Positions 1,753 to 62,241 of a stretch of DNA of 64,000 nt are shown here, piece by piece. Origin of the DNA: Ilex aquifolium (Eukaryota; Streptophyta; Magnoliopsida; Aquifoliales; Aquifoliaceae); NCBI GenBank assembly GCA_951799425.1, contig OX637395.1, forward strand, positions 35,240,323-35,304,322. The letters run 5' to 3'. Below the pieces are notes generated by a model. It made no database searches. It was not told the origin of the DNA and saw only the letters and a list, made by a program, of their open reading frames with translations. Both the position numbers and the translations under genes were made by a program. Within the stretch, counting starts at the first letter, position 1; every line of letters begins with the position of its first letter.

Positions 1753-1799
1753 CTAGCAACAAAAAGTCATGTCAAAACTAAAGAGCACACTAGGGTCAC

Positions 1800-11880: not shown

Positions 11881-12094
11881 TAACAAATTTTTTTTTTTTT
11901 TAACCTCGACGACAACCAAATTAACAAATTAGTTGAGTTTGAATTATCAAATTAATTGAGTTTGAATTATCAAATTAACATCCAAATTTAATCGAATTGA
12001 CATTCAATTTCATCAAATCAACACTAAATTAATATGTAATTTCATCCAATTAAAATTTAATTTATCTAATTAAAACGAAATTAATATTTTCTGT

Positions 12095-12785
12095 ATAAAG
12101 TTATTTGCGACGTTTTATAAAAACATCGCTAAAAATCACCCAAGTTAATTTTTTTGGTTGATTTTTTATTTTTTGTAAATTGTTATTTGCGACGTTTTTT
12201 AAAAACGTCGCTAAATATACCCAAGTTAATTTTTTTTGTTGATTTTTTATTTTCTGTAAACTGTTATGTGCGACATTTTGTAAAAACATCGCTAAAAATC
12301 ACCTAAGTTAATTTTTTTGGTTGATTTTTTATTTTTTGTAAACTGTTATTTGCGACGTTTTTTAAAAACGTCGCTAAAAAATCACCCAAGTTAATTTTTT
12401 TTGTTGATTTTTTATTTTCTGTAAACTGTTATGTGCGACGTTTTGTAAAAACATCGCTAAAAATCACCCAAGTTAATTTTTTTGGTTGATTTTTTATTTT
12501 TTGTAAACTGTTATTTGAAAAACGTCGCTAAAAAATCACCCAAGTTAATTTTTTTGTTGATTTTTTATTTTCTGTAAACTGTTATTTGCGACGTTTTGTA
12601 AAAACGTCGCTAAAAATCATCCAAGTTAATTTTTTTTGTTGATTTTTAATTTTCTGTAAACTGTTATTGGCGACGTTTTTTAAAAACGTCGTGAAAAATC
12701 AACAAAGTTAATTTTTTTGTTGATTTTTTATTTTCTGTAAAATGTTACTTGCGACGGTTTTGAAAAACGTCGCTAATAAATTTTC
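12095..12785. repeat. Tandem array of about 80 bp units with a palindromic GCGACG core
   Basis: About eight or nine units carry GCGACGTTTT followed closely by AAAACGTCGC, an inverted repeat that can fold into a short hairpin. Cores are near 12109, 12188, 12270, 12351, 12435, 12589, 12672 and 12750. One unit near 12517 has lost the left half of its palindrome. This is the right subterminal region of the CACTA element. Confidence 0.88.
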
Positions 12786-32296: not shown

Positions 32297-33000
32297 TTGA
32301 TGAATTGCCCCAGATTACTAGCTAATTGTATTCTTCTTCTCTTAATTGCTTCCCTCAAACTACTCATCAGTTTCTGGCACAGAGACAGACAGAGAGAGAA
32401 GAGAGGGGGGGGGGGCTATAGCACTCAAAACACCTTAGAAACAAACACACCAGAAGGGCCAAACAAGAAAAAAGAAGGGAAGCCTTTCAGATTCCGGCCG
32501 GTTCATCCACCATCTCCGTTTGGCCAAGCCTTTCAGATCTTACATCATTTGGTCTTGCATGATGTAATGCACCAGGTGGTGGTGGTGGAGGGGCGGAGAC
32601 TGCAGCGGCAGAAAGGTGGCGAAAGAGGTAGAGCCTAATAACTTGGAGGCGGTGGAGTGGCAGCTCCTCCTTGCGATGAAAATTCCGATGACACCCACAG
32701 GCGGCGCAAAGCAAAGCTTCTGGTGTTCCATCGTTCCCATTCTTCAAGAACTCACCGCAACCATCGAAAGCATGACGACCCAGGTTCGCTGCATGGTTGT
32801 GCCTACACTCTTTGTACACTACCGTCTCAGCGGCACCGCCGTTTGTGGCCATGAGAGAGAGAGAGAGAAGGGGGGACTATAGGGACGATGAAGCTAATTT
32901 GCATGGCTCTTCCAGCTGTGGAAAACCGCTGATACAACTTACAAGTGGCTTTACTGAGTAATAAATAAGTAACAGGAATTGCCATTTGTACTTTTTTTTT
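32297..33000. repeat. MIF duplication unit 1 (MIF gene plus flanks)
   Basis: The flanks of this MIF gene match those at 42010-42740 and 56990-57690. Shared parts are CTTTCAGATCTTACATC downstream, a GA tract just upstream of the ATG, then GATGAAGCTAATTTGCA, GGCTCTTCC and CAAGTGGCTTTACTG. The matching sequence is broken near 33000 and resumes near 33772. Confidence 0.8.
32487..32852 (-). CDS. Mini zinc finger (MIF) protein, copy 1, 121 aa
   Basis: This intronless gene encodes a ZF-HD dimerisation-type zinc finger at about residues 13-61. Key pieces are [20 protein letters not shown] and [16 protein letters not shown], with all the metal-binding Cys and His present. No homeodomain follows; a Pro-rich stretch and a tail [11 protein letters not shown] end the protein. 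Plant MIF proteins (about 80-100 aa) dimerise with ZF-HD homeodomain proteins through this finger and block their DNA binding. This copy is a little longer than usual. The start is the ATG next to a CT-rich leader, conserved in all three copies. Its C-terminal tail ends differently from copy 3 (MVDEPAGI). Confidence 0.87.
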
Positions 33001-34985: not shown

Positions 34986-36119
34986 TACTGGGTAATCCGT
35001 GTCTATTTAAAGGTACGGTGCAACGTAAGTGAGAAGTGATGAATTTGAGAGATAAAAAATTTAATGTGAATAATTTTAATAGGAATATTGGTGACCGTTG
35101 AATGAGTTTATTTGAAACTGTCGAATAAATTTATTGAAAGTCTTTTATGTTTTATATTATAAAAGATATATATTTTTTCGTGAAGGCCCCAACAACAAGC
35201 TACTGTGGTGGACCCTCCCCTCAAAAAATTTATTTAATATTGCGTAGGCCATTGACCCACGTATATTAGATATCAAATTAGGATTAATTACAAAATACCC
35301 CTTCAAAGGCCGAGAAACTACACTTAATCTTAACTAAAAGGCCGAGAAAGGTATTGGAAGCCTGACTTATAAACTAGTAAACATGGGTGTCAATCTTTTC
35401 TTAAATTCATGGTTGACCAATTATAATTGCACATATATATCTATTTATCACACTCAGATCCATTAAGACTAAACTCTAACTATATACGTTGATTTTCATA
35501 TTCAGTTCTTGAGTGTGTCTAGAATTATCATATTTAATTGTAAAGAGTATCTCTTTTGGTTGACTAATTTGTTCATTTTTGATTGCTTAGCAGAGTTTTT
35601 TAGAAATAAATTTGTCACCTGCAGTTTCTTACCTTTTAAATAAATATAATGTTCTTTATGGTGTGGATTACTTTTTGGGTATGAAGTGTAAATGGAGTCA
35701 AATTTTGGGGTCGGAAATGAGAAGATGACAAGTTTAATCACACATATATCTGTATATATGTGATTAAATTGGGAAGAATAGAATAAGCCTGAATAAGGAA
35801 ATAACATATAAATAAATAAACGTACAAAAACAAACGCTACTTAAAAGAATATACTTAAGAGATACAAAGACCAGAAAATTTAGGAAAATGTTACCAAACA
35901 ATACACTAATTAAACTCTGTATTCTTTTCGACCGTCTTTTTTTATCTACTTACTAGAGATAACTCGTGTCTGAATGTACGTTGCAATGTAAATGGTTTTG
36001 AGAGGGATATTGGTGGCCGTTGGATGAATATATTTGAGACCGTCGGATGAATTTATTAAAACATGTCCTATTTTATATTATAGATTATTAAGTTGTTAAA
36101 ATTAATTACTTGAACTTCT
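34986..36119. repeat. AT-rich DNA with two copies of a short dispersed repeat
   Basis: About 34990-35175 and 35945-36080 share a block with GTGTCT, a (G/C)TACG(G/T)TGCAA-like stretch, ATATTGGTG(A/G)CCGTTG(A/G)ATGA and TTTTATATTATA. The pair frames a region with no recognised gene. A weak minus-strand reading frame at 35502-35807 has no recognisable domain and was not accepted. Confidence 0.5.
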
Positions 36120-39016: not shown

Positions 39017-39538
39017 TCAAGGAGTGGATGAGGATGATGCTCGTCCGGCTTCCATCTTGCGCCTGTTGTAGCTGATCCAATTCTTCAACACCGGAGGGGT
39101 GATTCCGATCTCATTACACAACTTGGAAACGTCTTCCTCGTCATGCTTCATGACTCTCCAACCCAACTTCCTCTCTGCAAACACCTTCATTTTCTCTTTC
39201 TGTTCTTCTGTTAGCTTCGTCCTCGCCTTCTTTTTCACCCTCATTTCCTCCTCCTCTTCCACCACTCCTGCCACCTGCTCAGGTGAAATGGGTGGTTGTA
39301 GTCGTGCTGATGGAAGAGGAGGAGGAGGAGCGATGATGGCGGGGTGGGGGATCAAGTGGCTCCTGGTGGCCTGGTGGTTGGGGATAGGCGGCCCTGCCAC
39401 CACCTTCCGGTGGATATTGCGGTGACACCCATCAAGGGTATTGGCGACATTGAATCGTGCTGCTTGGTTTCGCAAGCACAGTCTGTACCTTGAAGGAGTC
39501 ACAGGCCTAGCACCATAGGCGTCATTGTTGTCGGCCAT
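39017..39538 (-). CDS. ZF-HD homeobox protein with a destroyed zinc finger, 173 aa
   Basis: The start chosen is MADNND at 39538. An in-frame ATG at 39658 would add 40 hydrophobic residues unlike the family. Residues about 104-162 form a ZF-HD homeodomain: KKKARTKLTEEQKEKM, W127, then VLKNWISYNRRKM with the invariant W154 and N158. The N-terminal dimerisation finger is reduced to YRLCLRNQAARFNVANTLDG followed directly by CHRNIHRKV. About 20 residues between DGC and CHRN, including the LLCAACG core, are missing, and the His of RNHAA is Gln. A Pro-rich linker and an EEEEE run lie between the parts. It should bind DNA but probably cannot dimerise through the usual finger. Upstream TTTGCATGGCT and a GA tract match the MIF units, so it belongs to the same tandem family. 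Confidence 0.87.
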   Translation of the reverse strand: MADNNDAYGARPVTPSRYRLCLRNQAARFNVANTLDGCHRNIHRKVVAGPPIPNHQATRSHLIPHPAIIAPPPPLPSARLQPPISPEQVAGVVEEEEEMRVKKKARTKLTEEQKEKMKVFAERKLGWRVMKHDEEDVSKLCNEIGITPPVLKNWISYNRRKMEAGRASSSSTP

Positions 39539-39659
39539 TGAAGAACTTAAAGTAGATAGATGAGCAATTGAAGAGATAGTGGAGAGAGGCAAGCAGACCA
39601 GTATGAGTGATAGCAATTTAAAGGAGGGAGAGAGAGAGAGAGAGGTGTTTCTTTGCATG

Positions 39660-41299
39660 GCTATGCCGGTTACAAATGCTTGTCATCCTGCACGTAATGG
39701 TTACAAGAGTTGACGCATGGACATAGTGACAAACCTGAGACCTAAGAGAAGGATGCTTTTTTTTTTTTTTTTTTTAAGAATCTAACACCATCCACGACTC
39801 TTGCTCAAATTTAAATTTAAATAAAAAAAACTCAAAAAATTGGCTTTAACCTTTAACTCAAACTTATATCAAATGAAGGGATACTCATTTTTTTACTAAA
39901 ATCAAGGGAGACTCAAATCTTTAATGGTGAGATTTTATCATCTTTTAAAGATTCAATGGTCGTTTTTATTCTGTTTTAAATTTAGGTTTACCCTCATTTA
40001 AATTTGGGTTTCTCCTTCTTTAAATTTGAGTTTGTCCATTGGAGTTTTTTGCATCAAATTAAGTTTTTTACTCAAATGTAAATTTATATTTGAGTAAAAA
40101 TTTGAATCAAGATTGGAGATACTCGAAGAGCCAAAAGTTATGTGTTGAGAAACTATTTAATAAAGGCAGTTGGTGAGATTTAATTCAGGTTTTGCTTCAT
40201 TTCATCAGGGTGATTATGATAATAAAAAAAATGAGATAAAAAATACGGTTCTCTGTGCCACTTTTATTTATTTAATATTTAAGGTTTAAGGTTTGCATAC
40301 AATATCAATTATCACATCATTTAAACTCTATTTTTTTATCTCGTTTCTTAGTCAGTCTAACATTATTAATTTACCAATAGTAAAAATTTATGTCTTGGTG
40401 GGTCATAACTAACTGATCAATTTCATGAGCTTAACTCCAATAACAAGAGCATCTCTCAGTGGCTGCAAGACCTTGTTTTTGGTTGACACTATTGAGAATG
40501 AGTATCTCACTTTTGACAAAGAGATATTCGAATTTGAATTACCATTATAATCTTGTTTGACTACGTATTGCGAGTAATAGTACAGGGATTAGTATACTCC
40601 ATATTTGTTTTTATGAATGAATTTAATTGTAGGGAGGAGTTTTTTTCCCTTATTTCGACCTTTTTTCTTTATGACCGTTAATTCTGTTATTTTTTCCTTA
40701 GATTTTGAACCGTTAAGACATATAATCACTTTGTAATAGACGGTCAATTAAACTGTCGTATTGTTGTCGTGGTTACGACAAAAATGTATATTTTTACTTG
40801 CTACACGTGTTCCTCTTTATAAATATTTTCTGCGTGGCAATTGTTCTGTTAGTATAATTACATAACAAGCGAAATGATGTCATAAATATTAAATGAAGTT
40901 AAATTGGTCTTTTCGAGTGTTTTTCTCTATTATAGTTATAATTTTGTTGTTTCTTTTGTAACCATAAGACATATATTCACTTTCTCACTATACGATCAAC
41001 AAAATTCTCACTTTGTTTCTATGGTAATGACAGACCTTTCAAGCTTTACATATAAAGAACGTGCAATGAAAATTTAATTTTTATCAAAGAACTCTAGAAT
41101 TTATCGCGAAAGCTTTTGCGACGGGCAATTGCAAAAGTATGTGCTACGAAAGCTCTAGTTCATTGTAATGGCTCAACTTGTTCACAATTCACTTATATAG
41201 CTAAACAACAATTGTAAACTCAAATTATATGATGTCTTTGGGATAAATATTTTCCTTTCTCATATCGTTTACAAAAGTGTACATAGTAGTTCTTTTAAA
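39660..41299. other. Flank of the ZF-HD gene and a partial dispersed repeat
   Basis: About 40125-40245 repeats the upstream flank of MIF copy 2 (AGAGCCAAAAGTT, AGAAACTATTTAAT, GGTGAGATTTAATT, CATCAGGGT). About 40600-41240 holds a degraded copy of the dispersed repeat (AACCGTTAAGACATATAATC; ACATATATTCACTTTCTCAC). No gene seen. Confidence 0.55.
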
Positions 41300-42205: not shown

Positions 42206-42505
42206 CTAACGCACCAGGTGGTGGTGGTGGTGGAGGTGAGGGCCGGCGGCAGCGGCTGCAGAAAGGTGACGAAAGAGGTAGAGCCTTAATTCTTGACGAC
42301 GGGTGAGTGGCTGCTCCACCTTGCGATGAAAACTCCGGTGACACCCACAGGCGGCGCAAAGCAAAGCTTCTGGTGTTCCGTCATTCCCACTCTTCGAGAA
42401 CTCGCTGCATCCATCAATGGCGTGGCGACCGAGGTGGGCTGCGTGGTTGCGCCTACACTCTTTGTACCTTACCGTCTCAGCAGCACCATTATTGTTTGTA
42501 GCCAT
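42206..42505 (-). CDS. MIF protein, copy 2, 99 aa, shortened by a frameshift in the Pro-rich part
   Basis: The zinc-finger part (residues 14-62: [20 protein letters not shown], then [13 protein letters not shown]) is almost identical to copy 3 and keeps all metal-binding residues. After SAAAAAG the frame changes within the GGT/CCA repeat and ends [10 protein letters not shown]. The tail typical of its sisters ([14 protein letters not shown]) is intact in another frame at 42132-42210. So only the C-terminal extension is lost, and the finger could still work. Noncoding flanks are also about 95 percent like those of copy 3, so the duplication is recent. Confidence 0.83.
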
Positions 42506-43060
42506 GAGAGAGAGAGAGAGATATGGGGGACTATAGAGGAGATGAAGCTAATTTGCAAGGCTCTTCCGGCGGTGCTGTGCGAAATCCACCATTCCTGCAA
42601 TAAAAAGTGACAGGAATTAATTGCCATCTGGACTTGTAGACAAAAGGGTGAGTCGGAGTCATCGGTTTTAAGGCTTTAAGCCATTGGGTTTGAAATGGAT
42701 GATAAGGTTGTAATTAAGGCTGAGATTCTGTCAGATACGCGTTTTTAAGTTGTGTTATCTTATAATTTAATTAATTATACCCAATACATCTATAATTTAT
42801 AGTCGAATTCATTTCTGAAGTTCGTACCATATATAAGTCGAGTATAAGCTAAGTTTAAGTGATAGTATTGTCTAAGAGCCAAAAGTTGTGTCGAGAAACT
42901 ATTTAATATCGAGGTGCGTGTAAGTTGATTCAGACACTCTTAATTGTCGAATTAAAAAAAAAAAATTATTTAATGTAAGGAGTTGGTGAGATTTAATTGA
43001 GGTTTTTGCTTGATTTCATCAGGGTAATTATGATAACAAACAATGAGACAAATTAAGAGT
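42506..43060. repeat. Upstream flank shared by MIF copies 2 and 3 (uninterrupted here)
   Basis: From the GA tract (about 42508) through GGATGATAAGGTTGTAATTA to ATAATTTATAGTCGAATTCA this flank matches 57470-57686 and then 58876-59040. Copy 3 carries a 1.19-kb insertion at about 42722 in these coordinates. The region holds the MIF promoter by position, but no clear TATA box was assigned. Confidence 0.75.
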
Positions 43061-43570: not shown

Positions 43571-45445
43571 TTACAATGTTTTAGAACTAGTCATAGCAAG
43601 AACCATTGTTCTGAACTTTTGAGAGGCTTTAAGGATCACATCAGGTGGTGGAAGGTTCTCCTTAATGACAGAAACTTCCAAAATGTTGTTCATCCATGAA
43701 GCAATTGAAGGATATTTTGCTGAGTCCATTACCTTAAAATCACCAAATTCTTGCGTATATTGCAACCAATATGAAAACCAACCAATGACAATATCAACAT
43801 ACCCTATCGTCTCTCCTCCAAAGAACTTCTTTTCAGCTATCTCACGTTCAAGGAGTGGTAGTACCTCGGCCATCATTTCAACTCCCCTTGCTTGTTCTTT
43901 TCCACGGTTAAAGAATGCTATGCTTGATCCTTCTAATAACTACAACAATAAAAGAAATACAATAATTTTAATCTATACCACGAGGAGTTCAAAATAAGGG
44001 GAGCTTTTGAATTTTTTTTATATTTTTTATTTTTTTAAAAGTATTTTTAAATTTGCATCTATTTTGAGACATTCTTAATTCATTGCATTTAAATAATTAA
44101 TTATTGATTATATATTATTTAAATAATTAGGTAGATAATTGACATAGAATTAACTGGATTAGTACTAGCCAATTCAATAGGGGTATTTTGGAATTTTGAT
44201 TCTTTAAATATGCTGACGTTATCAAATTTTGATGGCGTTCCAAATTGCTCTTAATGGTAGAGGATCTATGTGTTACATGGGTATAAATCTTACGGAGTGT
44301 TAGTATAATATGTCATACTTGAGGGGGTTTATGTGTTTTATTGACAAAGCTCAGAGGGTTTGAATGTAATTTACCCTAAAAAAATTCAATTCTTAAATAT
44401 TAATATTCAACTTTTAATGCCCAAACACCACCTAAATCTATTGTATTGTTAGCAAAGTGACTTTTCTTGTGTTTCTATCACTTAAATTGCTACGGGATAC
44501 TTTTATAAGAATATCTCCGACCTAGCTCTCTAAAATATATTTAAATATTATATTTTTTTACTTTAGTTAGTTATTTTTATAAATTCACTTCAACTACACT
44601 CTTTATTTTATGTAACTACTTCACCCAACTTTCTTTAACTTCCAATAATTTAAAAGAAATATAACATATATATAGAGATAGAGATAGATATACAGAGAAA
44701 TAATTTAGAAAGACTAACCGGTTCTCCACATTTGGAGAGCTATTTAGGTGAAATGAGAAATAAAGAGTGAAATAGAGAATAGGTTGGAGAGTGTTTTTTG
44801 TATTTGGTTAACTAAAATAGTTACAAGACATGAACTAAAGAGTGGGTTGGAGATGTTTTAAGGCCGAAGAAAAAAAGTCGACCCACGTAAAACAGAAAGA
44901 AAAAAGAATGACACCATATATTTAGTCAGACCCTCGACATAAAGATCTAAGATTAAACCTGTCATCACTAAACTTTAATAGATATTAGGGCAAACTGTAT
45001 CTTTTACCCCGAAAGATTTTAAAATTTTTATTTTATACCTTCAAAGAATAAATTTTTAGTCTATAAAAAATAGTACATGTTCTAGATCGCTGTAAAACAC
45101 GCGTCTGCGTTCACTGTCGAGTAATTTTACCTTTTTGTCGGCCAATTTAGCCCAGAAACGTGCATAGGCTCTTTGAATAGGATCTTTGGGTAAGATTGGA
45201 TTATGTTTCCACGTGTCGTCGATGTATTCGAGAATGACAAGGGATTCGCAGATTGGTTTTCCACCATGAATGAGCACAGGAATCATCTTGTGAACAGGAT
45301 TCATCTCCAGAAGCAATGGGCTCTTATTGAACAAATCTTCTTCAATGAACTCGAACTCAATTCCTTTCAACTTCAATGCCCACACAATCCTCCACACATA
45401 TTGGCTCGTTTTGTTGCCCAAAAGCTTCACATCTTTTCCGTCCAT
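43571..45445 (-). CDS. Tau-class glutathione S-transferase, 2 exons, 227 aa
   Basis: Exon 1 is 45445-45131 (105 codons, ends at an AAG|GTAAAA donor). Exon 2 is 43939-43571, after a TTGTAG acceptor, phase 0. Two exons and 227 residues are typical of plant tau GSTs. The N-terminal thioredoxin-like half shows [40 protein letters not shown] and LEYIDDTW. The cis-Pro (IPVL) and the glutathione-binding ES pair are kept. The C-terminal helical half has [15 protein letters not shown]. The expected active-site block SPFVQRV is changed: Ser14 is present, but it is followed by QYVWRI rather than PF. The enzyme should conjugate glutathione to electrophilic compounds in the cytosol. The start MDGKD was preferred over an upstream in-frame ATG at 45541. 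Confidence 0.9.
44250..44384. repeat. Single end of a MULE-type element in the GST intron
   Basis: Read inverted, GGGTAAATTACATTCAAACC, then CCTC and an ATAAAACACATAAACCCCCTC block resemble the ends of the element at 48264-49487. No partner end or duplication was found in the 1.19-kb intron. The rest of the intron is AT-rich without features. Confidence 0.4.
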
Positions 45446-45574
45446 GCTTTTGTCCTTACTTTGATGGGTATTTTCGCTTGTTTTTACAGGTATTTTGCTT
45501 CGGGAAGGACGATTATTATAGAAGAAGAGGCATAGATGCATCTAATATTCAAACCACCCCAATTTAGTTATTAA

Positions 45575-47785: not shown

Positions 47786-48254
47786 ATGTAGAAAGATTGT
47801 TTGGACCTTTGGAACTTATATATGAATAATTTTGATATTTTAGATGAATTTTTTTTATTAGAAATAGTGGTTTAACAGTAAGAGGTTTCAATGATGTTTA
47901 AATATAAACTATATGGGGTGTTAGTGATGTTTTAGATAATAGAGGGAGTATCTTTGAAAATATGGTGAACTAGGAGTGTGGCTGAAATTTTTCTTTTTTT
48001 TTTTCTTTTAGGGTTGAAAGTCTAACTCCATAAAAAACCCTATTTTCTAAAACTACCGTCCCTTTTCCCGGTTGAATTGCACCTGCGAGGAATTTGCCAA
48101 AATTAATCCAATCTTTGTTTTTTCCTCTATTAATTAACAGGTTAGTGTTTTTAATTTTGACTATTGAAAATTTTTAGATTTTGACAAATTTATGGCTTAG
48201 AAGAAGTGCAATCTCTATGGGTTGATTTATGTGGTATATTTAAGAATAAAATAA
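47786..48254. other. Intergenic, nothing recognised
   Basis: AT-rich sequence leading to the left duplication (TATTATTTT) of the MULE-type element. Confidence 0.5.
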
Positions 48255-48263
48255 TATTATTTT

Positions 48264-48583
48264 GGGTAAATTACACTCACACCCCCTGACATTTGACTTT
48301 ATTACACGAACACCCCCTCACATTTCAACAATTACACTGAGACCCCAATAGGCAGACGGAGTTAACTATTTTAATAAAAAGACTATTTTACCCTTCTGTT
48401 TAACACAAACCCTTCGTTTCATCAATCTTTTTTCTCTCTCTCTCTCTCTCCCTCAGCCCATCTCTGCTTGTGCGTGTATATATATATACATACATATATA
48501 CATACACATATATATAGATACATATATACATACACAGGCTCAATCTTCTCTCTCTCTATCCCTCAGCCCATCTCTGTGTGTGC

Positions 48584-48660
<77 letters not shown>

Positions 48661-49487
48661 ATACATACACATATATATACATACACACAGACAGAGAGAG
48701 GGAACCCGACAACAAAGCCATCTCTCCGTCGCCTACAATCACTGACCACCAACACCACAACAAAGCCATCACCGCCACAATCCAAAAACTCAAAACCAGA
48801 TCTGAGATTGATACTCCAAATCTGAGTTCTTCATGGTAAAAAATGGAACAGAGAAAGTTTTCAAATTTTTGAGATCGATTTTCAAATCTGTGTTTGGTGG
48901 GTTTGTGTGGTGGATTGTGGCGGTGGATCGCGGTGTTTGGTGGGTTTGTGTGGTGGATTGTGGCGGTGGATCACGGTGTTTGGTGGGTTTTATGTGGTGG
49001 ATTGTGGCGGTGGACTTGCGGTGCTTGGTGGATTTCACTTGAAGGTGAGTTGTGACAGTGGAGATTGATGGTTTGCTGGGTTTGTGTTGCGGATTTGGGG
49101 GCAAATTGGGTGGGTTTGTGTGGTGGATTTCACTGGTGGTGGAGGCGGCAATTGGTGGTGCATGGTGGTGGTGTTAATGGTATTAATTAGAATTGAATTT
49201 GGGGGCTAAATTTAAATTAATGAAATTTTGGAGATAAATTACCTTAATTAGTAGATTGGTTTGATTTTATTAAATTTTTTAAGATAAATTTGATTAAGAG
49301 ATTGTTAATCTCAATGTTATAAGGGTAAAAAAGTCTTTTTAATGAAATAGTTAACGTCTGTTATACAAAAAGGGGTGCGGTTGTCACAACTATTCTAATG
49401 TCAAGGGGTCTTAGTGTAATTGTTGAAATGTGAGGGGCTGTCCGTGTAATAAAGTCAAATGTCAGGGGGTGTGAGTGTAATTTACCC
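48264..49487. mobile_element. MULE-type non-autonomous element, 1224 bp
   Basis: Inverted ends start GGGTAAATTACACTCACACC and stay similar for about 130 bp, through CCCCCTGACATTTGACTTTA and CACCCCCTCACATTTCAACA. The flanking 9-mers TATTATTTT at 48255-48263 and 49488-49496 are identical, the Mutator-like hallmark. The interior has a (TA)n run (48587-48655), a duplicated CCTCAGCCCATCTCTG block (48453 and 48561) and a GGTGG-rich tandem stretch (48890-49150). No transposase and no recognisable captured gene. Confidence 0.92.
48587..48655. repeat. (TA)n microsatellite
   Basis: About 34 TA steps in a row, inside the MULE-type element. Frames reading Tyr-Ile repeats here are artefacts. Confidence 0.97.
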
Positions 49488-49601
49488 TATTATTTTTTAT
49501 TAGATGCGTATCTCTAGTTGTGAAGATGAACTCTATCGTATAATTATTTTCGAGCACAATATTCCCCCCCACCCTCCCAAAGATAAAATTTTAGCTATGT
49601 C

Positions 49602-50542
49602 CAGGGGCAGAGCCAGGAATTCTGATCAGGGTGGACACTTTAATTAAGCACTCTAATTTTTTTCATTCTAATCAATCAAACTATATAATATATTTATATT
49701 TATTATATTATATTTGATACATGAAGTCCATTTAACATAAAAAAAAATGCTAATATATATATATTGTCAGGGGTGAAGCCATGAATGTCTATGAGGGGAC
49801 AAAATATAACTGGTATAAAAAAATATTTAGCCGAAATTGATACAAAAAAATTCAGTTCAAGAATAACAAAAAAGTAAGAATCAAAACAAAATTATTGTGA
49901 AATAATAAATTCAATTTTTATTTAGCCGAAGCAAAATTCTAACAAAAAGACAAAAAAAAAAAATTTAGTACATTTTTAACCTAATTATATATTTCAATAA
50001 AATATAAATTTTTTAAAAATCACTAAAATTTTGTATATGAATTAAATGTAAATTAATTTTCACTAATTTTCTATCAATGCGCACAATCACAAGTCCGTAG
50101 TAAAATTATTTTTTATTTAGTTGCAATTAGGGATTTTATACATTTTTCTCCCCTTAGTCAAGTGGGCCAAAAGTTTTGTTTTTTAATGGTGGGTGTGCCA
50201 AAAGTTTTGTTTTTAATGTTGGGTCAAAAATTTTGTTTTTAATGTTGGGCTAAAAGTTTTACTTTTTTAATAGGTTTGAGTGGATTGTGATAGGTCAAAT
50301 ATTTGATTTTTTAATAAGTTTGGGTAGATAATAGTGGGCTCAAATTTTTTTTGTTTTAAATGGACTTAATTTTTTAATTTTTTTGGGTAAATAATGTGGG
50401 CCTCATATTTTTATCTTGGATTTTGGGTGGGCACAAATAATATATTATACAAATTTATAATATATATACTTAACTAAAAAAAAAAAAAAAAATTTGAGGG
50501 GGGGCACGTGCCCACCCTGGCCCTAGCCTCCCTCCGCCCTTG
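49602..50542. mobile_element. hAT-type element, 941 bp, GGCGGAGCCAG family
   Basis: The left end is CAGGGGCAGAGCCAGG; the inverted right end is CAAGGGCGGAGGGAGGC, followed inward by GGCCAGGGTGGGC. The flanking 8-mers GCTATGTC at 49594-49601 and 50543-50550 are identical. A second left-type end, CAGGGGTGAAGCCATG, starts at 49768, so a related element may be nested inside and truncated. The interior repeats a TTTTGTTTTTAATG(T/G)TGGG phrase. No transposase. Confidence 0.88.
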
Positions 50543-50550
50543 GCTATGTC

Positions 50551-51571
50551 CCTACGTTTCCGCACTTGTATACGATTCCCAACATTAGTAGCAGATCCAT
50601 TTAGAGTGTTTTCGCACCTTTGGAATCAATTAGCATCAATTTAGAGACGCCAAAACGCATGAAAACACATTGTCTTTGCACAAAAGCTTTGAACGGACTT
50701 CAATGGCATCTCAGAGAAATAATCTCTGAATGCCATGAAATTTCAGTAAGTTGTAGTCCACATGTGTGTGAAATAAGCTTGAATGTTTCGTGGTAAAAGG
50801 CCTTACAGATTTTGAGAAAAATGGAACTCTAGTTGGAATTGACCCACGGGCTGGCCCGAACCAAACCAAGTCATGCTTAAGTGGCTCACTTACGGGTTAT
50901 CAGGAGGAGTTTTAACTCCTAATTTTTTTCGATATTCTGCAATTTTTTAATTTTTTATTTTACATATATTTTTACCAAATTATATGGAGAGTTAAAAAAT
51001 TTGAATTTTTTAAATTTTCAACAAAATAAATAAAAAATAGGAAATTGAACACCGTTCATGACAGAGGGGGCACATACTTTTTTTTTCAAAATATTTTATT
51101 ATGTGTATTTTTTTATAATTATGTTTAATTTAGTGTACCAGTTTCCAAAGAACCCTTCAAAGAATGCCTCAAAATTTGCAGATGCATAGTTAGTCGGTAG
51201 TTTGGGCTCTTTAACCCAACCCATAATATTAAAATTAGTGAAAATTAAAATTAAGAATAATATAATAATTTATTTTACCAATAAGAACAAGCGCTAACTT
51301 ATAACATATGGTATGTAATATTTGGTAAGTAAGTCCAATAGTCTGTTTTATATTTTTTTTAAAATTTCTCTTATGTCCTCCTGTAGTACGTTATTATTCC
51401 AATTTCTCTCTCCTTGCTCTCTCTTCTCCCTCTCTCTTCTCCTCCGGCGTGAAACCACCGGTGCTCTACTCCTGACGAGATAGCTAGTTATGGTTTACCA
51501 TATCTCTCCAAAATCCACTTTATTTAAGCTGCCAAAGCCCTAAGTTCCAGAGCTCCTCTTCAATCGAAACA
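50551..51571. other. Intergenic, then leader of the IPI3-like gene fragment
   Basis: No gene is recognised to about 51380. From about 51390 a CT-rich stretch (CTCTCTCCTTGCTCTCTCTT) and CCTCTTCAATCGAAACA directly before the ATG look like the 5' untranslated region of the gene fragment that starts at 51572. Confidence 0.5.
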
Positions 51572-51609
51572 ATGGAAGAGGAACTGGTGATAGTTTCATC
51601 GTCAACCAA

Positions 51610-52170
51610 GACCTTTTGACCCATCCCGAGTGTTTTTGAAAAAAAAGTCTCAAGGGTTGGTTTGAAAATAATTTTCAAACTCAGGTCCTTTTAAAAAACG
51701 TCAAATTGACCGACGTTTTTAAGATAAAAATGTCAGTTCATTTGACGTTTTTAAAAAGGAAAAACAGATTCCAAAAAACTTAAAAACGTCAGTGCAATTG
51801 ACGTGTTATTTAAAAACGTGAGTTGTATTGACATTTTTAACTCAAACCTGAACCCCATTTTTCCCTCCTCTCTCTTATTTTCTCTTCTTCCCCCCCCCCC
51901 CCCTTTGAGCTACCTAACTCACTCAGGCGACATCGCAGCACCCCCATAGTAGACCACCATCGCAGCACCCCCCATTTCCCTTATTTTTATTTTCCTTTCC
52001 CTTATTCTCAATCAGCAGCTAATCGCAGAACCACCACCATCCTACTTCACCACCCACCACCACGCAGCACCACCCAGCGCCACCCACGACCACTCAGCCC
52101 CACCCACCACCACCCAACCATCGAAGCCGCACCACCATCAGCCTCCATTGCACCGTTGACAACATCCACC
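51610..52170 (+). repeat. Left terminal inverted repeat of the Pack-MULE
   Basis: It pairs with 54990-55579 over nearly its whole length with indels. It contains four or five AACGTCA / TGACGTTTTT inverted pairs (51690-51840), a C-run at 51890-51903 and a CACCACC-rich end. Confidence 0.9.
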
Positions 52171-52189
52171 ACATCCGGTGAGAATTCTT

Positions 52190-52850
52190 AGATTATTTAA
52201 TGAAAAATATTGAAATTATATGAAATGATTGAAATATTGAAATTGTATGAAAATATTTATTGATTATTGATTATTGATTATTGATTGAAATATTGAAATT
52301 GAGTTGAAATTATTGAAATTATTGAAAATATTGAATTTATATTGATTGAAATATTGAAATTGAGTTGAGTTGATTATTGAATTGGGTATTGAGTAGATTA
52401 TAGATTATTGATTATTGAGTTGATTATTGAATTGGGTATTGAGTTGATTATTGAGTAGATTATTGATTATTGAATTGGGTATTGATTATTTAGTTGATTA
52501 TTGAATTGGGTATTGAGTAGATTATTTAATGAAAAATATTGAAATTATATGAAATGATTGAAATATTGAAATCCTATGAAAATATTTATTATTGAATTGA
52601 GTTGATTATTAATTGAGTTATTGAATTGAGTATTGAGCAGATTATTGATTATTGAGTTGAGTTGATTATTGATTGTGTTATTGAGTTGGGTATTGAGTAT
52701 ATTATTGATTATTGAGTTGAGTTGATTATTGAATTAAGTATTGAGTAGATTATAGATTATTGATTATTGATTATTGAAAATTAATTATTGAGTTGATTAT
52801 TGAATTGGGTATTGAGTAGATTATAGATTAATGAAACAAACTGAAGCTTT
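52190..52850 (+). repeat. Simple tandem stretch of TTGATTATTGAGTTG-like units
   Basis: Units such as GATTATTGAATTGGGTATTG and AGTAGATTATTGATTATTGA recur more than fifteen times. It lies inside the Pack-MULE between the left repeat and the DUF4079 fragment. Noncoding. Confidence 0.88.
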
Positions 52851-53119
52851 TCAACATTTTTAAAATTAGAAGTAAATTAATAAACTTTGCTAGATGAAAA
52901 ATAATAAAATTAGAAGTAAATTAACAAACTGAAGATATTGATGTTCTTTTTTATGCATTTTCACAATTTTGTGGTGTCAAATTCACCCCCAGAAATGTCA
53001 GTTTTGTAATTTGGTTTCACTTCCACCACATCTGCTAGTTAATTAATTTGCATTTACTGGATACTGACTTCATCTTTTCTTTTACATACTCCTACTGAGA
53101 TTGAATTTCTGGATGTCAG
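52851..53119. other. Pack-MULE interior before the captured fragment
   Basis: Intron-like sequence with a pyrimidine-rich stretch leading to the TGTCAG acceptor at 53114-53119. It is probably captured intron of the DUF4079 gene. Confidence 0.45.
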
Positions 53120-53692
53120 CTGCTAGTGTGAGGTCTCTGTTTGGGCCTTTTGTTGAACTTCTGAAGTCATGGAACCTTCCGGGCTGGCTTGTGCATTGGG
53201 GTCACCCTGGTAACATGGTAGACTTCTTTTCTTTTGCTTCCTTGCCCACCTCCTTGTTCTTTTTATTTATTCTTTTACCTTAATCATTGCTGCAAATCTT
53301 TCAATTGAGTTTCTTGTTTAGAGTTAAATAAGTATTTGTTTATGGGATTTTCTCTCCTGTAATGTTGCAGGTTGTTGTGCTCTTTGCCATGGGTGGTTAT
53401 GGAACCTATTTAGGTTTTCGAATTCATTTTTCTGCTAATGTGGTAAGACATCGTTTGAATACGTTATATTTAGTTGTTTGCCTATAATGTCATTTTTGTA
53501 CCCTAATTTGCATTGGTAAATCCAGGAGGAAAAAGCAAAGGCTAAAGACTTGCACCCAAAACTCCTTGGAGGAATGTTTTTCTTCTTTGCTCTTGGAGCT
53601 ACTGGTGGTGGTCGCGGTGTAATTCAGAACTCATCAGTTCAATGAATATCTTTCTTTTTATTCATTTATACAGGGGAATTCTGGACTACGGA
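53120..53692 (+). pseudogene. Captured fragment of a DUF4079-family plastid protein gene
   Basis: Three consecutive exons with intact splice sites can be read. 53120-53217 gives VRSLFGPFVELLKSWNLPGW and HWGHPGNM. 53371-53442 gives VVVLFAMGGYGTYLGFRIHF. 53526 to about 53612 gives EEKAKAKDLHPKLLGGMFFF and ALGATGG. A later exon start at 53674 reads GNSGLRNVHG. These match the recalled DUF4079 family, predicted chloroplast membrane proteins of unknown function. The transit-peptide exons, the segment that should follow GATGG (VTSLLTSDK...) and the C-terminus are missing. The break at about 53612 coincides with a rearrangement. It cannot make a complete protein. Confidence 0.75.
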
Positions 53693-53842
53693 ATGTTCAT
53701 GGGATGTTCATGGGAATTCTTTTTAGGTTTTAGCTTCATAGGTGTAAACATGTACTAACCCGTCTGGTCGCGGTGTAATTCAGAAGTTCTTATGCATCTC
53801 ATATGGGAGGATTTGTCAATCAATTTTCATTGAACTGATGAG
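53609..53842. repeat. Rearrangement scar: 21-bp direct and 16-bp inverted repeats
   Basis: TGGTCGCGGTGTAATTCAGA(A) occurs at 53609-53629 and again at 53765-53785. Directly after the first copy, CTCATCAGTTCAATGA (53630-53645) has an exact inverted copy at 53827-53842. The arrangement sits where the DUF4079 reading frame loses similarity, so it looks like filler from repair or capture. Confidence 0.85.
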
Positions 53843-54018
53843 CAATTCAATTAATGGAATTGATTTGGTTAGTCATTCATACATGCAAATGTATACCTCT
53901 TTTATGATGCACTTCATATTTTTCAGAGCAATGGACACATCTCGAGTAAGTCTAACAAATGAAACTGTGCAGCTCTTACAGGATGTAGATTTCAGAGCTG
54001 GTAAAGCATGAAGCGTCT

Positions 54019-54210
54019 TCAGGAATGCAACCACAAACGATCTCGCAGCCTCTCCTCCCCAGCACCAAACATCTCATCAACCTTTTCAATTTCACCCTCT
54101 CGGTAGAAATGAAAAGTTGGTGTGTACCGAATATGCCGAGTGCTTTCTGGGCATTCGTCGATATCTGCATATATGGAAGATAATTGTGGAAACTTGTTGA
54201 ACATAAATAT
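54019..54210 (-). pseudogene. Captured last exon of a thioredoxin-like 3-3 gene
   Basis: After a GTACTAG acceptor the minus strand reads MFNKFPQLSSIYADIDECPE, HIRYTPTFHFYREGE, KVDEMFGAGEERLRDRLWLH and S-stop. This matches the C-terminal half of plant thioredoxin-like 3-3 proteins (about 125 aa, ending ERLHDRLWLHS). The N-terminal half with the WCGVC-type redox site is absent, so the piece has no thiol-disulfide activity. Relative to the recalled family there is a short insertion (EIE) after REG. It lies in the opposite orientation to the DUF4079 piece, so it was captured separately or inverted. Confidence 0.78.
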
Positions 54211-54989
54211 CTAGTACAGTGTATGAACACCAAAACCAATGATGCCTCCTATTTCATTCAGATGATCTTGAGTGTGCTGTGTTCTACTCGGTGCAAAATC
54301 AAAGCTAGTAGAATGATGTATTATACAATTGATGCGTATGTTTATTAATATTTGTGCGAAAACAAAAAATAATGCCCTCATGGGCACAAATGTATTCATG
54401 CACCAAACTGAAAACATCCATTTTGGAATTAGATTACTTGCAAAAACAGATTACCAATAGATGCTTTCTACAAATTGAACTATTTGAAGTACAATTGATA
54501 TATTATGTCAACCACTTTCTGGTGCATCTTATGGCATTGAGGCTTCTTGATCAGACTTTAATGCATTTCATAGTGTGCAAGAAATCAATTCACAGTAAGA
54601 AATCGATCTCCCAAGTAAACACAACAAAGCCAAATTTCATTGGAGTCAAACATCGAACACCTTGTGTTCACAAATTTTGCACCCCTCCCTCCCCCAACAC
54701 ACACATACATCTTGTCGCCCCTTTTAATTCCTAATATAAAATTGTTGGCTTAACTAAAAGATAATAATTGATAGCAAATAACAGGTATAATATATGATAT
54801 TTGGATCACTAAACAAGAAACCTAATTTACCAAAAAGGGACGGTGCAAAGCAATAGGCATCAACAGTGTAAACTTGTCAACAAAGAACTTACCTGGTCGC
54901 TGGTGGAAGAAGATGAAGCTAATGGTATACATATTTTTCATTCAACAAATAAAGAGGACTCACCGGAGTTGGTGGAGGCGCTGTCAGCG
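54211..54989. other. Pack-MULE interior after the captured fragments
   Basis: No recognised exon. On the minus strand this is upstream of the thioredoxin-like exon and may be its captured intron. A plus-strand open frame at 54354-54734 has no recognisable domain. Confidence 0.45.
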
Positions 54990-55579
54990 GTGCAATGGAG
55001 GAACAGTAGTGCAGATTGGGGGATTTTGGGTGGTGATGGGGCGGGCTTCGATGGTGGTGGTGCTTGGATTTGGGGCCTCGATGGTTGGGTGGTGTTGGGT
55101 AGTGGTGGGTGGTGCTGGGTGGTGCTGGGTAGTGGTAGGTGGTGCTGGGTGGTGCTGGGTGCTGCTGCGATGGTGGTGTTGCTATGACCAATAGTGGCTG
55201 CTGATTGAATGGGGGTGCAATGGTTCTCTCGCCTGGAAACGTTAGGGCTCAGATGAGAGGGAAGAATGGGAAAATAAGAGAGAAAAGAAGAGGGGAAAAA
55301 CGAAGCTTCAACTTAAACACGCAAGTAGAACTGAGGTTTTTAATTAAAACGTCAATTATAATAACGTTTTTAGGGCTCTTGAAATTTGACTCTTTAACCT
55401 TAAAAAACATCAGTTGGACTGACGTTTTTAGGCTAAAAACGTCAGACCAATTGACGTCTTTAAGTCTTAAAACGTCAGGCCAATTGACGTGTTTAAAAAA
55501 ATTTGGGTTTGAGAACTATTTTCAAATCAACCATTAGTTAGGATTTTTTTTTCAAAACAACGTGAGATGGGTCAAAAGC
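54990..55579 (-). repeat. Right terminal inverted repeat of the Pack-MULE
   Basis: Inverted partner of 51610-52170. The GGTGGTGCTGGGTGGTGCTG-type stretch at 55060-55160 is the inverse of the CACCACCCAGCACC stretch on the left. The GACGTTTTTAGG/AACGTCA pairs lie at 55350-55490. Confidence 0.9.
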
Positions 55580-55753
55580 TCGTCAACCAACGCCTGCATC
55601 AATTGTTGGAACCTATGGTCCGGCGCCGAGCACCTTCGCTATAAATCATGCTATTGGGAACCAGTGGTTACGATTGGGGCTTTTGATTTACCAACCTACG
55701 ACTTCGATGTAACCTCTGAAGAAGTGTTTCCCTTGCAAGTAGCACAGCTCTAG

Positions 55754-56988
55754 GAAGCCTATCATTCTCACTGAATCTCTCTCTCTCTCTCTCTTATACC
55801 GCTAAAATTTTCTTGAGTTTACAGAGTTTCCTAAAGCAGATTGGCTCTGATTTGGTCATAACGTACTGATTCATACTCCTGGACATGCCAAAATACACCA
55901 CATGTTGAGTACAAAATTTGTCTAGTTGTCCAAAGTGATTCATACTACCGAATTTTATGCATGGATTGTAAAGAGATGCCCATATTCGTCTTAAAAAAAA
56001 AGTATCATATTCACACAAAAATTTAGTATTAGTTTATTTTTTGTTTTGATGACGTTCTTCGGTTTATATGTTATGTCCAAATGGTGTTCAATGAAATTGA
56101 TAAGTTAAGGGTGTTTTTTTTTTTTTTTTGTGACTGTTACTGTGATAATGTAACTGTCTAATTTATATTACTGTCTAGTTTTGTATAATTTTGATAATGA
56201 CTATAGTTGTTACTGTTATGCTCCACCTCTGCCACCTTTTATAGTACCTCTATTCCCAACTATCGTTCCTTACATCTCACCCACACGAGCATTGCTGTTA
56301 ATGTGATCATGTTATTGTGAGAGTGATTGTTAATGTTACTACTACAGTGTCGTTATTGTTACTATCTTGCTATTACTGTTACTGTTATTGTGTCGCTATT
56401 ACTGTTACCGTCTTACTGTTATTATCTATTTTGTAATATAACTATTTATTTTATTAAGGATAAATTAACTTTTATACTTTTAGTTGTTTTTTAAGTCCCA
56501 AAAAAAACACGTCTGTCCTTCTGCTCCCAAAAGTTCACAAGTGTAGATCAACTTCCAAAAAGCTCTTAAAATTATACTAAAATATTTTTTTAGGCAAAAA
56601 AAAAGAAAAAGCTAAGGGTTAAAATAATTTTAACTAATTAACCAAAACACACCACTCATTTGTAACTATTCTCCCTCTCTCTCTCTCTCTCTCTCTCTGT
56701 ATATAGTAAACTAATGCCCTCCCTCTCACTCACTCTCTACTAAATACAAATTCTCTTCTTTTTTCTTGTGTTACCGTAAAATAAGCTAAAATATTTTTTT
56801 ATTAAACTATAAAAATTAAAATCAATAAACTATAATTGTTTGAAATTAAAATTTATAAAATCTTCCCTAAGATCAATCATCACAACAAAAATTATAATAG
56901 TTTTAATTTAAAAAAAAAGAATAAATTTTTAAATAAAAAATTATTAATATTAAAAATAAAAAAACTCATTTGTATTAGCCCGCCCTAG
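55754..56988. other. Intergenic, nothing recognised
   Basis: Includes (CT)n at 55776-55793 and 56672-56698 and a T/G-rich stretch with many TACTGTTA-like steps (56130-56440). No reading frame with a recognisable domain. Confidence 0.5.
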
Positions 56989-57088
56989 TGTGTGTGGTGA
57001 GAGAGAGCGAGTCCAAAGCAAGTAATTAGCAAGCTGAATTAATATATTGCATCCGACTGGAGGAAGAAAGAAAATAACCGAAGGAAAA

Positions 57089-57469
57089 TCAAGTTTGGGT
57101 TCCATCCTCAATTTCCCCTTCGCCGAGCCTTTCAGATCTTACATCGTTTGGTCTTGCATGATCTAAAGCACGAGGTGGTGGTGGTGGTGGCGGCGGTGGT
57201 GGAGGGCCAGCGGCAGCGGCTGCAGAAAGGTGACGAAAGAGGTAGAGCCTTAATTCTTGACGGCGGGAGAGTGGCTGCTCCTCCTTGCGATGAAAATTCC
57301 GGTGACACCCACAGGCGGCGCAAAGCAAAGCTTCTGGTGTTCCGTCGTTCCCACTCTTCGAGAACTCGCCGCATCCATCAATGGCGTGGCGACCGAGGTG
57401 GGCTGCGTGGTTGCGCCTACACTCTTTGTACCTTACCGTCTCAGCAGCACCATTATTGTTTGTAGCCAT
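57089..57469 (-). CDS. MIF protein, copy 3, 126 aa
   Basis: This is the best-preserved MIF of the cluster. The ZF-HD dimerisation finger spans residues 14-62, with Cys17, His21, Cys33, Cys50, Cys53, Cys55, His56 and His60 in place ([37 protein letters not shown]). It is followed by [16 protein letters not shown], an 11-Pro run and the tail [20 protein letters not shown]. No homeodomain is present. The expected role is to sequester ZF-HD homeodomain proteins by dimerisation. The start is the ATG next to the CT/GA tract conserved in copies 1 and 2. Downstream and upstream flanks match copy 2 closely. Confidence 0.88.
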
Positions 57470-57686
57470 GAGAGAGAGAGAGAGATATGGGGGACTATAG
57501 AGGAGATGAAGCTAATTTGCAAGGCTCTTCCGGCGGTGCTGTGCGAAAACGACCATTACAAGTGGCTTTACTGCAATAAAAAGGAACAGGAATTAATTGC
57601 CATTTGGAGTAGAAGACAAAAGGGTGAGTAGGAGTCATCGGTTTAAGCCATTGGGTTTGAAATGGATGATAAGGTTGTAATTTAGG

Positions 57687-58875
57687 CGGGGGCGGGACAA
57701 TTTGGGGCCTAAAAGGGACAAATATAAATGAGGTTTTTTTTATTTTTTAATATTAATAAAAAGAAATATAAAATGTGTTTTTTTAAAATTTTTTGAGATG
57801 TAAAATTACTAAATTTTTTATAATGAGATTTTGCTAATATAATCATTGATCTATTTAATTTTTCTTGTGATATAATCGATCTTAAATAAAATTTTATTAT
57901 TTAAACAATTTTTTTCTACAAAAGTAATTGTTATTAGGTATGTCAAGTGTCAACGGACCAAATATGGACCGGATTGGCCTATATTCGAATCCGAATCCGA
58001 TTAACTTTTTTGTCCATCCGATTATCCAACGGATTTGAAAAATTCAATCCATGTCCAAATCCGATAATTTTCGGATGCTCAATCCGAAAATCCGATCCAA
58101 TCCATTATCCACCAAATTTGAAAAATTCAATCCATTATCCGCCAAATTTGAAAAATTTAATCCATATCTGAATCTGTTAATTTTTTATCCGGTCCGATTA
58201 TCACAAAAAACACTTGTACACCAAAAAATTAATAATAAGAATTTATATAATTAACTAAAAAAAGGAGGAAAAATGAAAAATTAAAGTAAAAGAAAGAGGA
58301 AAAATCAAACAAGAAAGGGAAACAAAATAAAAATGAAAAAAAGTGGGTCATACATTGTGATATTCACTCTATTTTTACTTATTTTTTAGTATAAGTATAA
58401 TATATGTGTGATATTTATTTACATAATATTTTTTCATTCAGATCGAATTATTATAAATTCATATCCGAATCTGTTTAGAGTCTTAGACAACTCTAATTGA
58501 ATTAGGATCGGATCGGATTAATTGATTGAAAATTTGATCCATATCTGCTTAAACGAATTGGAATTCGAGTTGAAATCCAGTCCATTGACAGACCTAGTTT
58601 TTATAAAAAACTGTCAATAATATTAGTTGAATAATAAATGCATTTGAAAAATAAAATTAACTTTTTTATATAATTTAGTATATCAATTAGAGTATGACCC
58701 AAACTAATTAATTTTATTTGTGGACTTAACTTTCAGTACTTTTTGTGGGCTTTGATGTTTTTAAAGATTTAGACTTTTTATTTTGGCTAATTACACATCC
58801 AAATATTTTGGGGCCTTCCATAAGTGTGAGACTTAAAGTAAAGGCCTTGTTGGCCTTGTTATTGGGTCGGCCCTG
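57687..58875. mobile_element. Probable hAT-type element, 1189 bp, in the flank of MIF copy 3
   Basis: It is absent from the matching place near 42722 in the copy 2 flank, where the sequence runs straight from TTGTAATTAAGG to CTGAGATTCTG. The ends are CGGGGGCGGGACAATTTGGG and, inverted, CAGGGCCGACCCAATAAC, both continuing to GGCC. A clean 8-bp duplication was not found. It contains the nested MITE at 57935-58596. Confidence 0.7.
57935..58596. mobile_element. hAT-type MITE, 662 bp, nested
   Basis: The ends are TAGGTATGTCAAGTGTCAAC and, inverted, TAGGTCTGTCAATGGACTGG, the TAGG..TGTCAA type also seen at 20704-21202. The interior repeats AATCCGA and CCGATTA. The flanking 8-mers ATTGTTAT and GTTTTTAT match at 6 of 8 bases. 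Confidence 0.72.
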
Positions 58876-59984
58876 AGGTTACGTCGGATTCTGTGTCGCG
58901 TTTAAGTTGTATTATTTTAAAATTTAAATAATTATACCCAATGTATTTGTAATTTATAGTCGAATTCATCTGTGAAATTCATATCGTTTATAAATTGAGT
59001 ATAAGTTACGTTGTAAGTGGTGGTATTGTCTTTAACCATATTTATATCAACTCATTTATTTGGCAAGTGTAAGTATAAAAGCATTTCTGGTGAGTCTGTA
59101 ACAACCACAGTAGCATCATAAATCAAACAAATGTAAATATGTTTTAAAGCGTAATAAAATAATTTTTTTCATAAAAGTATCCTTAGTAAAAGTAAATTAT
59201 ATTAAATTTTAATGTACTAGAAATGCACTAAGTGCGTTACACGTGATTTTTTTGTTGAAACATTTGATAAAACACATAAAATAATCTAATTATATAGTTA
59301 AATTAGATATTATCTCATATTTAACATACTTAAATTGTTTGTATTCTCTTCATAACTATAAACATCCGATGAACTCATTTTCTGTGATTTTTTTATTCGA
59401 ACTACTAAGTAGTAAGGGTTATAGATTTTTCTTTTCTCTATTTTTTTTTTTTTTTTGTCTTTCTTGTTTTTACTTTGTGCCTCAATAGTTTTTTACCAAA
59501 TTATTTTGATTGTGAATGAAGAGAAAAGCTATATATATCCATTTTGGGGCATTGGAGATGATATTGTGTCAATGGAGTTGTCGACGTATATTAATATTAG
59601 GGTTTTGAAAAAAAAAAAGAATAATATTTTTTTTGTATATCATATTAAGCATAACATGACCATTCAAAAGTTTTGCAAAGATAGAGAAATTTATATGATT
59701 TATTAGAGATTATTTTTTTATTTAAATACATAGAGGTATAATGGTAATTTATATATTTAAATACAAAAGGACATGTTAGACTTTATAATTTTTAATAAGG
59801 GTAAAATAGTGAATCAAAAAAATTTCATGCTAAGGTATATTGTTTGTTTTTAACTATGTACCTATGTATGTTATTACAGGTGTGACAAGAATGGAATAAA
59901 ATTAGACAAGAAAATACAAAAATTAAATACTTATGAACAAAAAATACTTAAAAAACGTTTAAGAATAATATCTTAATTTAGCAT
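58876..59984. other. Rest of the MIF copy 3 flank, then AT-rich DNA
   Basis: 58876-59130 continues the flank shared with copies 1 and 2 (ATTATACCCAATGTATTTGT; TAGTCGAATTCAT). The remainder is AT-rich. An 83-codon frame at 59455-59706 has no recognisable feature and lies in low-complexity sequence. Confidence 0.55.
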
Positions 59985-61964: not shown

Positions 61965-62241
61965 AGTTATTTACCAATGGCATGCACCTCATAAACTTAT
62001 TTCTTAAAACTAGTCATTACTTTCAAACTTATTTCTTAAACTTCACTTTTTAGAGGACGTCATTTGAAATGACGTCATAACACCTTTAAAGCGTTAAAAA
62101 CGTTATTTCAAATGACATATTTCAAGAAAACGTCATTTGGAATGACGTTTTGTAAAAATTGACTAGGTTTGAGAAATAAGTTTGAAAGTGACTGATTTAG
62201 AAAAATAAGTTTTTGAGGGGAATGGATATAATGAAAAGTTT
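61965..62241. mobile_element. Small MULE-like MITE, 277 bp
   Basis: The 10-mer TATATTCACT is duplicated exactly at 61955-61964 and 62242-62251. It belongs to the ACATATATTCACTTTGTCG block of the surrounding repeat, so the empty site is known from sister copies. The inner ends CATAAACTTATTTCTTAAAA and (inverted) CAAAAACTTATTTTTCTAAA are complementary. The centre has GACGTCATTTGAAATGACGT-type palindromes like the repeats of the Pack-MULE ends. Confidence 0.88.

Follow-up and report, generated by a model that had tools for sequence, protein, structure and literature searches.

A Pack-MULE in Ilex aquifolium carrying DUF4079 and thioredoxin-like gene fragments in opposite orientations

How did pieces of two host genes, read from opposite strands, come to lie between inverted repeats within 3,970 bp of the Ilex aquifolium genome, and what could such an arrangement do? 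The locus lies in the window analysed here, the whole 64-kb stretch of contig OX637395.1, and an original prediction had described it as a Pack-MULE with an 11-bp target duplication and two captured gene fragments. The proposed span of 51610–55579 is exact, with TCGTCAACCAA directly adjoining both ends. The element is delimited by the following features:

51599–51609, no strand: left target-site duplication TCGTCAACCAA, one of an exact 11-mer pair
51610–52210, plus strand: left terminal inverted repeat, its outer part with ACGTCA/TGACGT palindromes, its inner part C-rich
52205–52835, no strand: AT-rich degenerate tandem repeats (TATTGAATTGAGTATTGAG...), from repeat analysis
54931–55579, minus strand: right terminal inverted repeat, from self-comparison and alignment
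55580–55590, no strand: right target-site duplication TCGTCAACCAA, partner of the exact 11-mer pair

The 11-mer is a perfect direct repeat with only two occurrences in the window, both strands searched, and among 20,000 random draws of window 11-mers only 2 had a partner at similar spacing (41 offsets), which bears out the target duplication. Homology between the terminal inverted repeats (TIRs) ends near 52210 in the left arm and near 54931 in the right one, giving arms of about 600 and 650 bp; the repeats had thus been recognized correctly, while their predicted length of about 560–590 bp was slightly too short. In both arms the outer part is AT-rich and the inner part C-rich. Their local alignment score of 156 compares with a maximum of 34 among 300 Markov shuffles. 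Identity is 75% across the outer 150 alignment columns (blastn), and 413 of 501 gap-free columns are identical in a global alignment that is rich in gaps and hence flatters identity. Two observations count against the explanation favoured here: the arms have diverged, with gaps and about 20–25% of aligned bases differing, and the tips begin with GACCTTTTG and GCTTTTG, so that the extreme tip is not an exact mirror image. The inner TIR parts are, moreover, partly low-complexity, as would be expected if the locus were no transposon unit and chance gene debris simply lay between two C-rich/AT-rich repeats. This is hardly credible given the alignment of the outer 150 bp, the exact 11-bp repeat at both ends and the open frame of 66 codons that appears once the unit and one copy of the duplication are removed. 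Elsewhere in the window, a small foldback element at 61981–62224 has at its centre a AAAACGTCATTTGGAATGACGTTTT palindrome resembling the TIR palindromes, and it is possibly a miniature element related to the Pack-MULE.

In agreement with the original prediction, we identify the unit as a Pack-MULE; transposons of this type are common in plants. Indeed, long TIRs, a perfect 11-bp duplication, host gene fragments (DUF4079 by Pfam, thioredoxin by PDB matches), the lack of any open reading frame longer than 133 aa and the lack of a transposase family together fit this class. Six stop-to-stop open reading frames of at least 110 aa lie within the element, the longest being the one of 133 aa, and Pfam searches with all six revealed no transposase family reaching its cut-off, the best match being FAM194 (E=0.042). 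Target-site duplications of other superfamilies are shorter (3 bp in CACTA, 8 bp in hAT). CACTA, hAT, Helitron and retroposon identities were dropped, as the length of the duplication and the TIRs are at odds with them. Pack-CACTA and other Pack-TYPE elements share the cargo principle but differ from the present element, with its 11-bp duplication, in these shorter duplications. Mutator-like elements, as described in PMC3310237, have duplications of 9–11 bp, TIRs typically of 100–500 bp and promoters within the TIRs. Pack-MULEs of rice, tomato, Arabidopsis and maize likewise combine long TIRs and 9–11-bp duplications with host fragments and no transposase, whereas the arms found here are a little longer than the typical 100–500 bp. 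A pattern made from one terminal TIR had no match in viral contigs, and no relative of the TIRs or of the fragments was found in the viral and prokaryote collections, which say little on plants; these collections thus yielded no second copy that would prove mobility, and this too is counted against the favoured explanation.

Between the TIRs, the cargo comprises the following features:

53120–53217, plus strand: captured DUF4079 exon (a), an open frame with AG before and GT after
53371–53442, plus strand: captured DUF4079 exon (b), an open frame, with Pfam run on exons a–c joined
53526–53611, plus strand: captured DUF4079 exon (c), taken to end after ...FALGATGG, at the filler start
53609–53646, no strand: filler made of direct and inverted copies, from a repeat search against Markov shuffles
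53674–53721, plus strand: candidate additional piece of a DUF4079 exon (GNSGLRNVHG...), with acceptor-like ATACAG ahead of it
54019–54210, minus strand: C-terminal exon of a thioredoxin-like gene, captured along with its stop codon, an open frame with PDB matches

The first three exons, the third ending at about 53611, join over two GT..AG introns into a frame without a stop codon, ASVRSLFGPF...FFALGATGG. This frame matches Pfam PF13301 (DUF4079) with E=2e-8 and 35.0 bits against a gathering cut-off of 31.4, covering profile positions 1–68 of 141, and the piece breaks off within its third exon. Because the fragment holds introns, genomic DNA and not cDNA was taken up, as had been proposed. The same proposal had treated 53120–53692 as one spliced DUF4079 fragment; spliced DUF4079 sequence is indeed present there, but it is not a single piece, as filler interrupts it. 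By its motif, 53674–53721 looks like a possible later DUF4079 exon; Pfam gave it no DUF4079 support, whether alone or joined with the spacer, and joining it without the spacer raised the score from 35.0 to only 35.8 bits, the match ending one residue in. This stretch also contains an 11-bp tandem duplication at 53693–53715 (a 12-bp match at 53693 and 53704), equal in length to the target-site duplication, which could be due to slippage or be a transposon excision footprint. Searches for relatives of the DUF4079 fragment returned 21 pattern stretches in viral contigs and 98 in genome contigs of the viral and prokaryote collections, none of which was confirmed.

On the minus strand, the frame running from 54210 to the stop codon at 54019–54021 reads IFMFNKFPQLSSIYADIDECPESTRHIRYTPTFHFYREGEIEKVDEMFGAGEERLRDRLWLHS. 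Its best match among PDB thioredoxins has E=3.3e-5, and 24 distinct sequences match at E<=0.01, which bears out the thioredoxin-like exon; the Pfam Thioredoxin family matches the frame with E=0.024, under its cut-off. The gene name '3-3' given to this exon is putative. With DUF4079 on the plus strand and the thioredoxin-like exon on the minus strand, the opposite orientations of the fragments are supported as well. Sixteen pattern stretches related to the thioredoxin fragment were found in viral contigs, and none was confirmed.

The break in the DUF4079 exon points to how the cargo may have been assembled. Filler 53609–53629, TGGTCGCGGTGTAATTCAGAA, is an exact 21-bp direct copy of 53765–53785, and the immediately adjacent 53630–53646, CTCATCAGTTCAATGAA, is the exact reverse complement of 53826–53842 (17 bp). 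The copied sequence lies 150–200 bp from the filler, between the two gene fragments, and we have taken the copy outside the broken exon as the source. In the 1,061-bp region searched, a direct repeat of at least 21 bp arose in none of 500 Markov shuffles and an inverted repeat of at least 17 bp in one of 500. Such a pattern would be expected from template switching while a gap is repaired, and it points to several closely spaced switches. Gap filling with template switching has been argued for animal Pack-TIRs in PMC8277862. The cargo would then have entered as genomic DNA while a break or gap within the element was being repaired, the direct and inverted patches at the DUF4079 end being the visible scar, and a transposase supplied from elsewhere would later have recognized the TIRs and mobilised the complete 3,970-bp unit. 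The original prediction had reasoned that two fragments in opposite orientations imply at least two captures. This does not follow, since the filler fits one multi-switch repair, which could have brought both fragments; because the switches cluster at the filler, capture events cannot be counted from one copy.

Two other routes to the same cargo can be weighed against these data. If the parent genes were convergent genomic neighbours taken up jointly by a single capture, with the filler as a later internal deletion, both the opposite, converging orientation of the fragments and the location of the filler source between them would be accounted for. We consider this unlikely, as DUF4079 is cut off within an exon and the distance from there to the thioredoxin stop codon is only about 400 bp, so that at least one large deletion would be needed. 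Fusion of neighbouring elements has been proposed for Pack-TYPE elements, with examples from PIF, Mariner, CACTA and hAT in PMC8903248, and by this model two Pack-MULEs with one fragment each would have inserted nearby and been remobilised jointly through their outer TIRs. Each fragment is indeed sense to its own TIR; nevertheless, blastn with TIR queries (word 7, E<=0.01) revealed no internal TIR remnant between 52210 and 54931, so the model requires complete loss of the inner TIRs, and we judge it improbable.

The orientation of the fragments also bears on transcription. GT sites of the element were scored by strand with an approximate weight matrix, and three donor-like sites stand out:

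52178–52183, plus strand: donor-like CCG|GTGAGA within the left TIR, ranked first among 221 scored GT sites
54958–54963, minus strand: donor-like CCG|GTGAGT within the right TIR, second of 182 scored GT sites
54887–54892, minus strand: donor-like CAG|GTAAGT, a perfect consensus, slightly inward of the right TIR, ranked first among 182 scored GT sites

Each fragment is oriented in sense to the nearer TIR and lies behind a donor-like CCG|GTGAG near the inner end of that TIR; hence inward, convergent transcription initiated in the TIRs and giving spliced chimeric RNAs would be the most likely activity of the element. The two TIR donors are homologous and thus do not constitute independent evidence, and the higher rank of the minus-strand donor at 54892 over the TIR donor at 54963 counts against the favoured explanation. 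One left-TIR frame continues in frame into DUF4079, for which the chance is one in three. On the opposite strand, the candidate acceptor is 54210 or 54164, and either leaves one right-TIR frame open into the thioredoxin frame. Collectively, this arrangement makes chimeric RNA from the TIRs plausible and suggests convergent, TIR-driven chimeric transcripts similar to those of MuDR. MuDR, the autonomous Mutator element of maize, has two convergent genes that are transcribed from promoters in its TIRs according to PMC3310237, and the present element likewise has two inward convergent units, each adjoining a TIR; unlike MuDR, it holds gene fragments and no transposase-like open reading frame, and its convergent transcription is a prediction. 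Long chimeric proteins starting in the TIRs are unlikely, because the inner stretches 51841–52177 and 55320–54964 contain no ATG. The outer TIR parts contain one ATG on the left and two on the right, so that transcription beginning further out would produce a leader with ATGs. Short frames could still begin at ATGs within the cargo.

Removal of the element also reveals what it entered. When the flanks are joined without the element and one duplication copy, the 66-codon frame noted above is open from its ATG and comprises two parts:

51572–51609, plus strand: target ORF start (MEEELVIVSSST...), weakly WD40-like in the joined-flank frame
55591–55753, plus strand: target ORF remainder to the stop codon (...NACINCWNLWSGAEHLRYKSC + YWEPVVTIGAFDLPTYDFDVTS...), its second part PNGase A-like (PF12222)

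A stretch of 21–22 residues matches PF12222 (PNGase A) with E=4.4e-4 in the joined ORF and 1.5e-4 alone, both under the gathering score, and none of nine shuffled target peptides matched any family. A WD40 identity of the target was rejected, as low PDB E-values for designed chains arise from summed repeats and the single-repeat scores shown are 3.4 bits or less, not significant; ROOT INITIATION DEFECTIVE 3 is a putative name for the WD40-like part. Since a weakly WD40-like start is fused to a weak PNGase A match, we tentatively read the target as an older gene-fragment fusion, a chimeric ORF in which the element probably landed. No outer element was identified by comparing 48001–51571 with 55714–59500 for an outer TIR pair around this ORF; matches at E<0.5 were AT-rich or simple-sequence, and the others had E of at least 1.7.

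Other contents of the window were recorded as well. Three similar minus-strand ORFs with a ZF-HD dimerisation domain (32487–32876, 42206–42547 and 57089–57511; E 4e-28 to 3e-27) are spread across 25 kb, and a minus-strand glutathione S-transferase gene occupies 43571–45541 (N-terminal domain at 45056–45541, C-terminal domain at 43571–43939). Retrotransposon debris at 1794–6959 includes a reverse transcriptase match at 3750–4337, and we read the other ORFs of that region as part of the debris. Self-comparison revealed tandem arrays with units of roughly 210–225 bp (10204–12083) and about 82 bp (12085–12781). The ORF at 39017–39682 had no family match. The only Rfam match in the window is a U2 snRNA-like one on the minus strand at 35154–35354 (50.5 bits versus a gathering score of 46), outside the element.

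Overall, we consider it very probable that the locus is a non-autonomous Mutator-like Pack-MULE, whose cargo would stem from template switching and whose most likely activity would be convergent TIR-initiated RNAs, inserted in a probable fusion locus. Multi-gene capture is already routine in published work on Pack-MULE and Pack-TYPE elements, and the Pack-MULEs of rice, tomato, Arabidopsis and maize sometimes hold fragments of several genes, as here. Published examples are putative genes derived from Oryza MULEs, of which 5–10% have at least two parents (PMC4858842), and Pack-TYPE elements whose DNA stems from several loci (PMC8903248), the same being restated for Pack-MULEs (PMC3544724). Direct and inverted filler is visible in the cargo of this copy and may set it apart from other Pack-MULEs. 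More speculatively, and rather doubtfully, the TIRs may act as built-in exon traps, each with an ATG-free inner leader and a strong donor near its inner end, giving MuDR-like convergent chimeric transcripts; if so, any fragment captured with an inward-facing acceptor would be spliced to a TIR first exon. As the element would also sit within an older chimeric ORF, the layers of gene shuffling would be nested. The known picture of Pack-MULEs is unchanged by this element. As a single example, it legibly records how a plant transposon assembles and delivers gene pieces, with repair scars copied both ways, fragments sense to each end and insertion in a probable fusion, and it could help to test template switching as the origin of Pack-MULE cargo and TIRs as a source of first exons.
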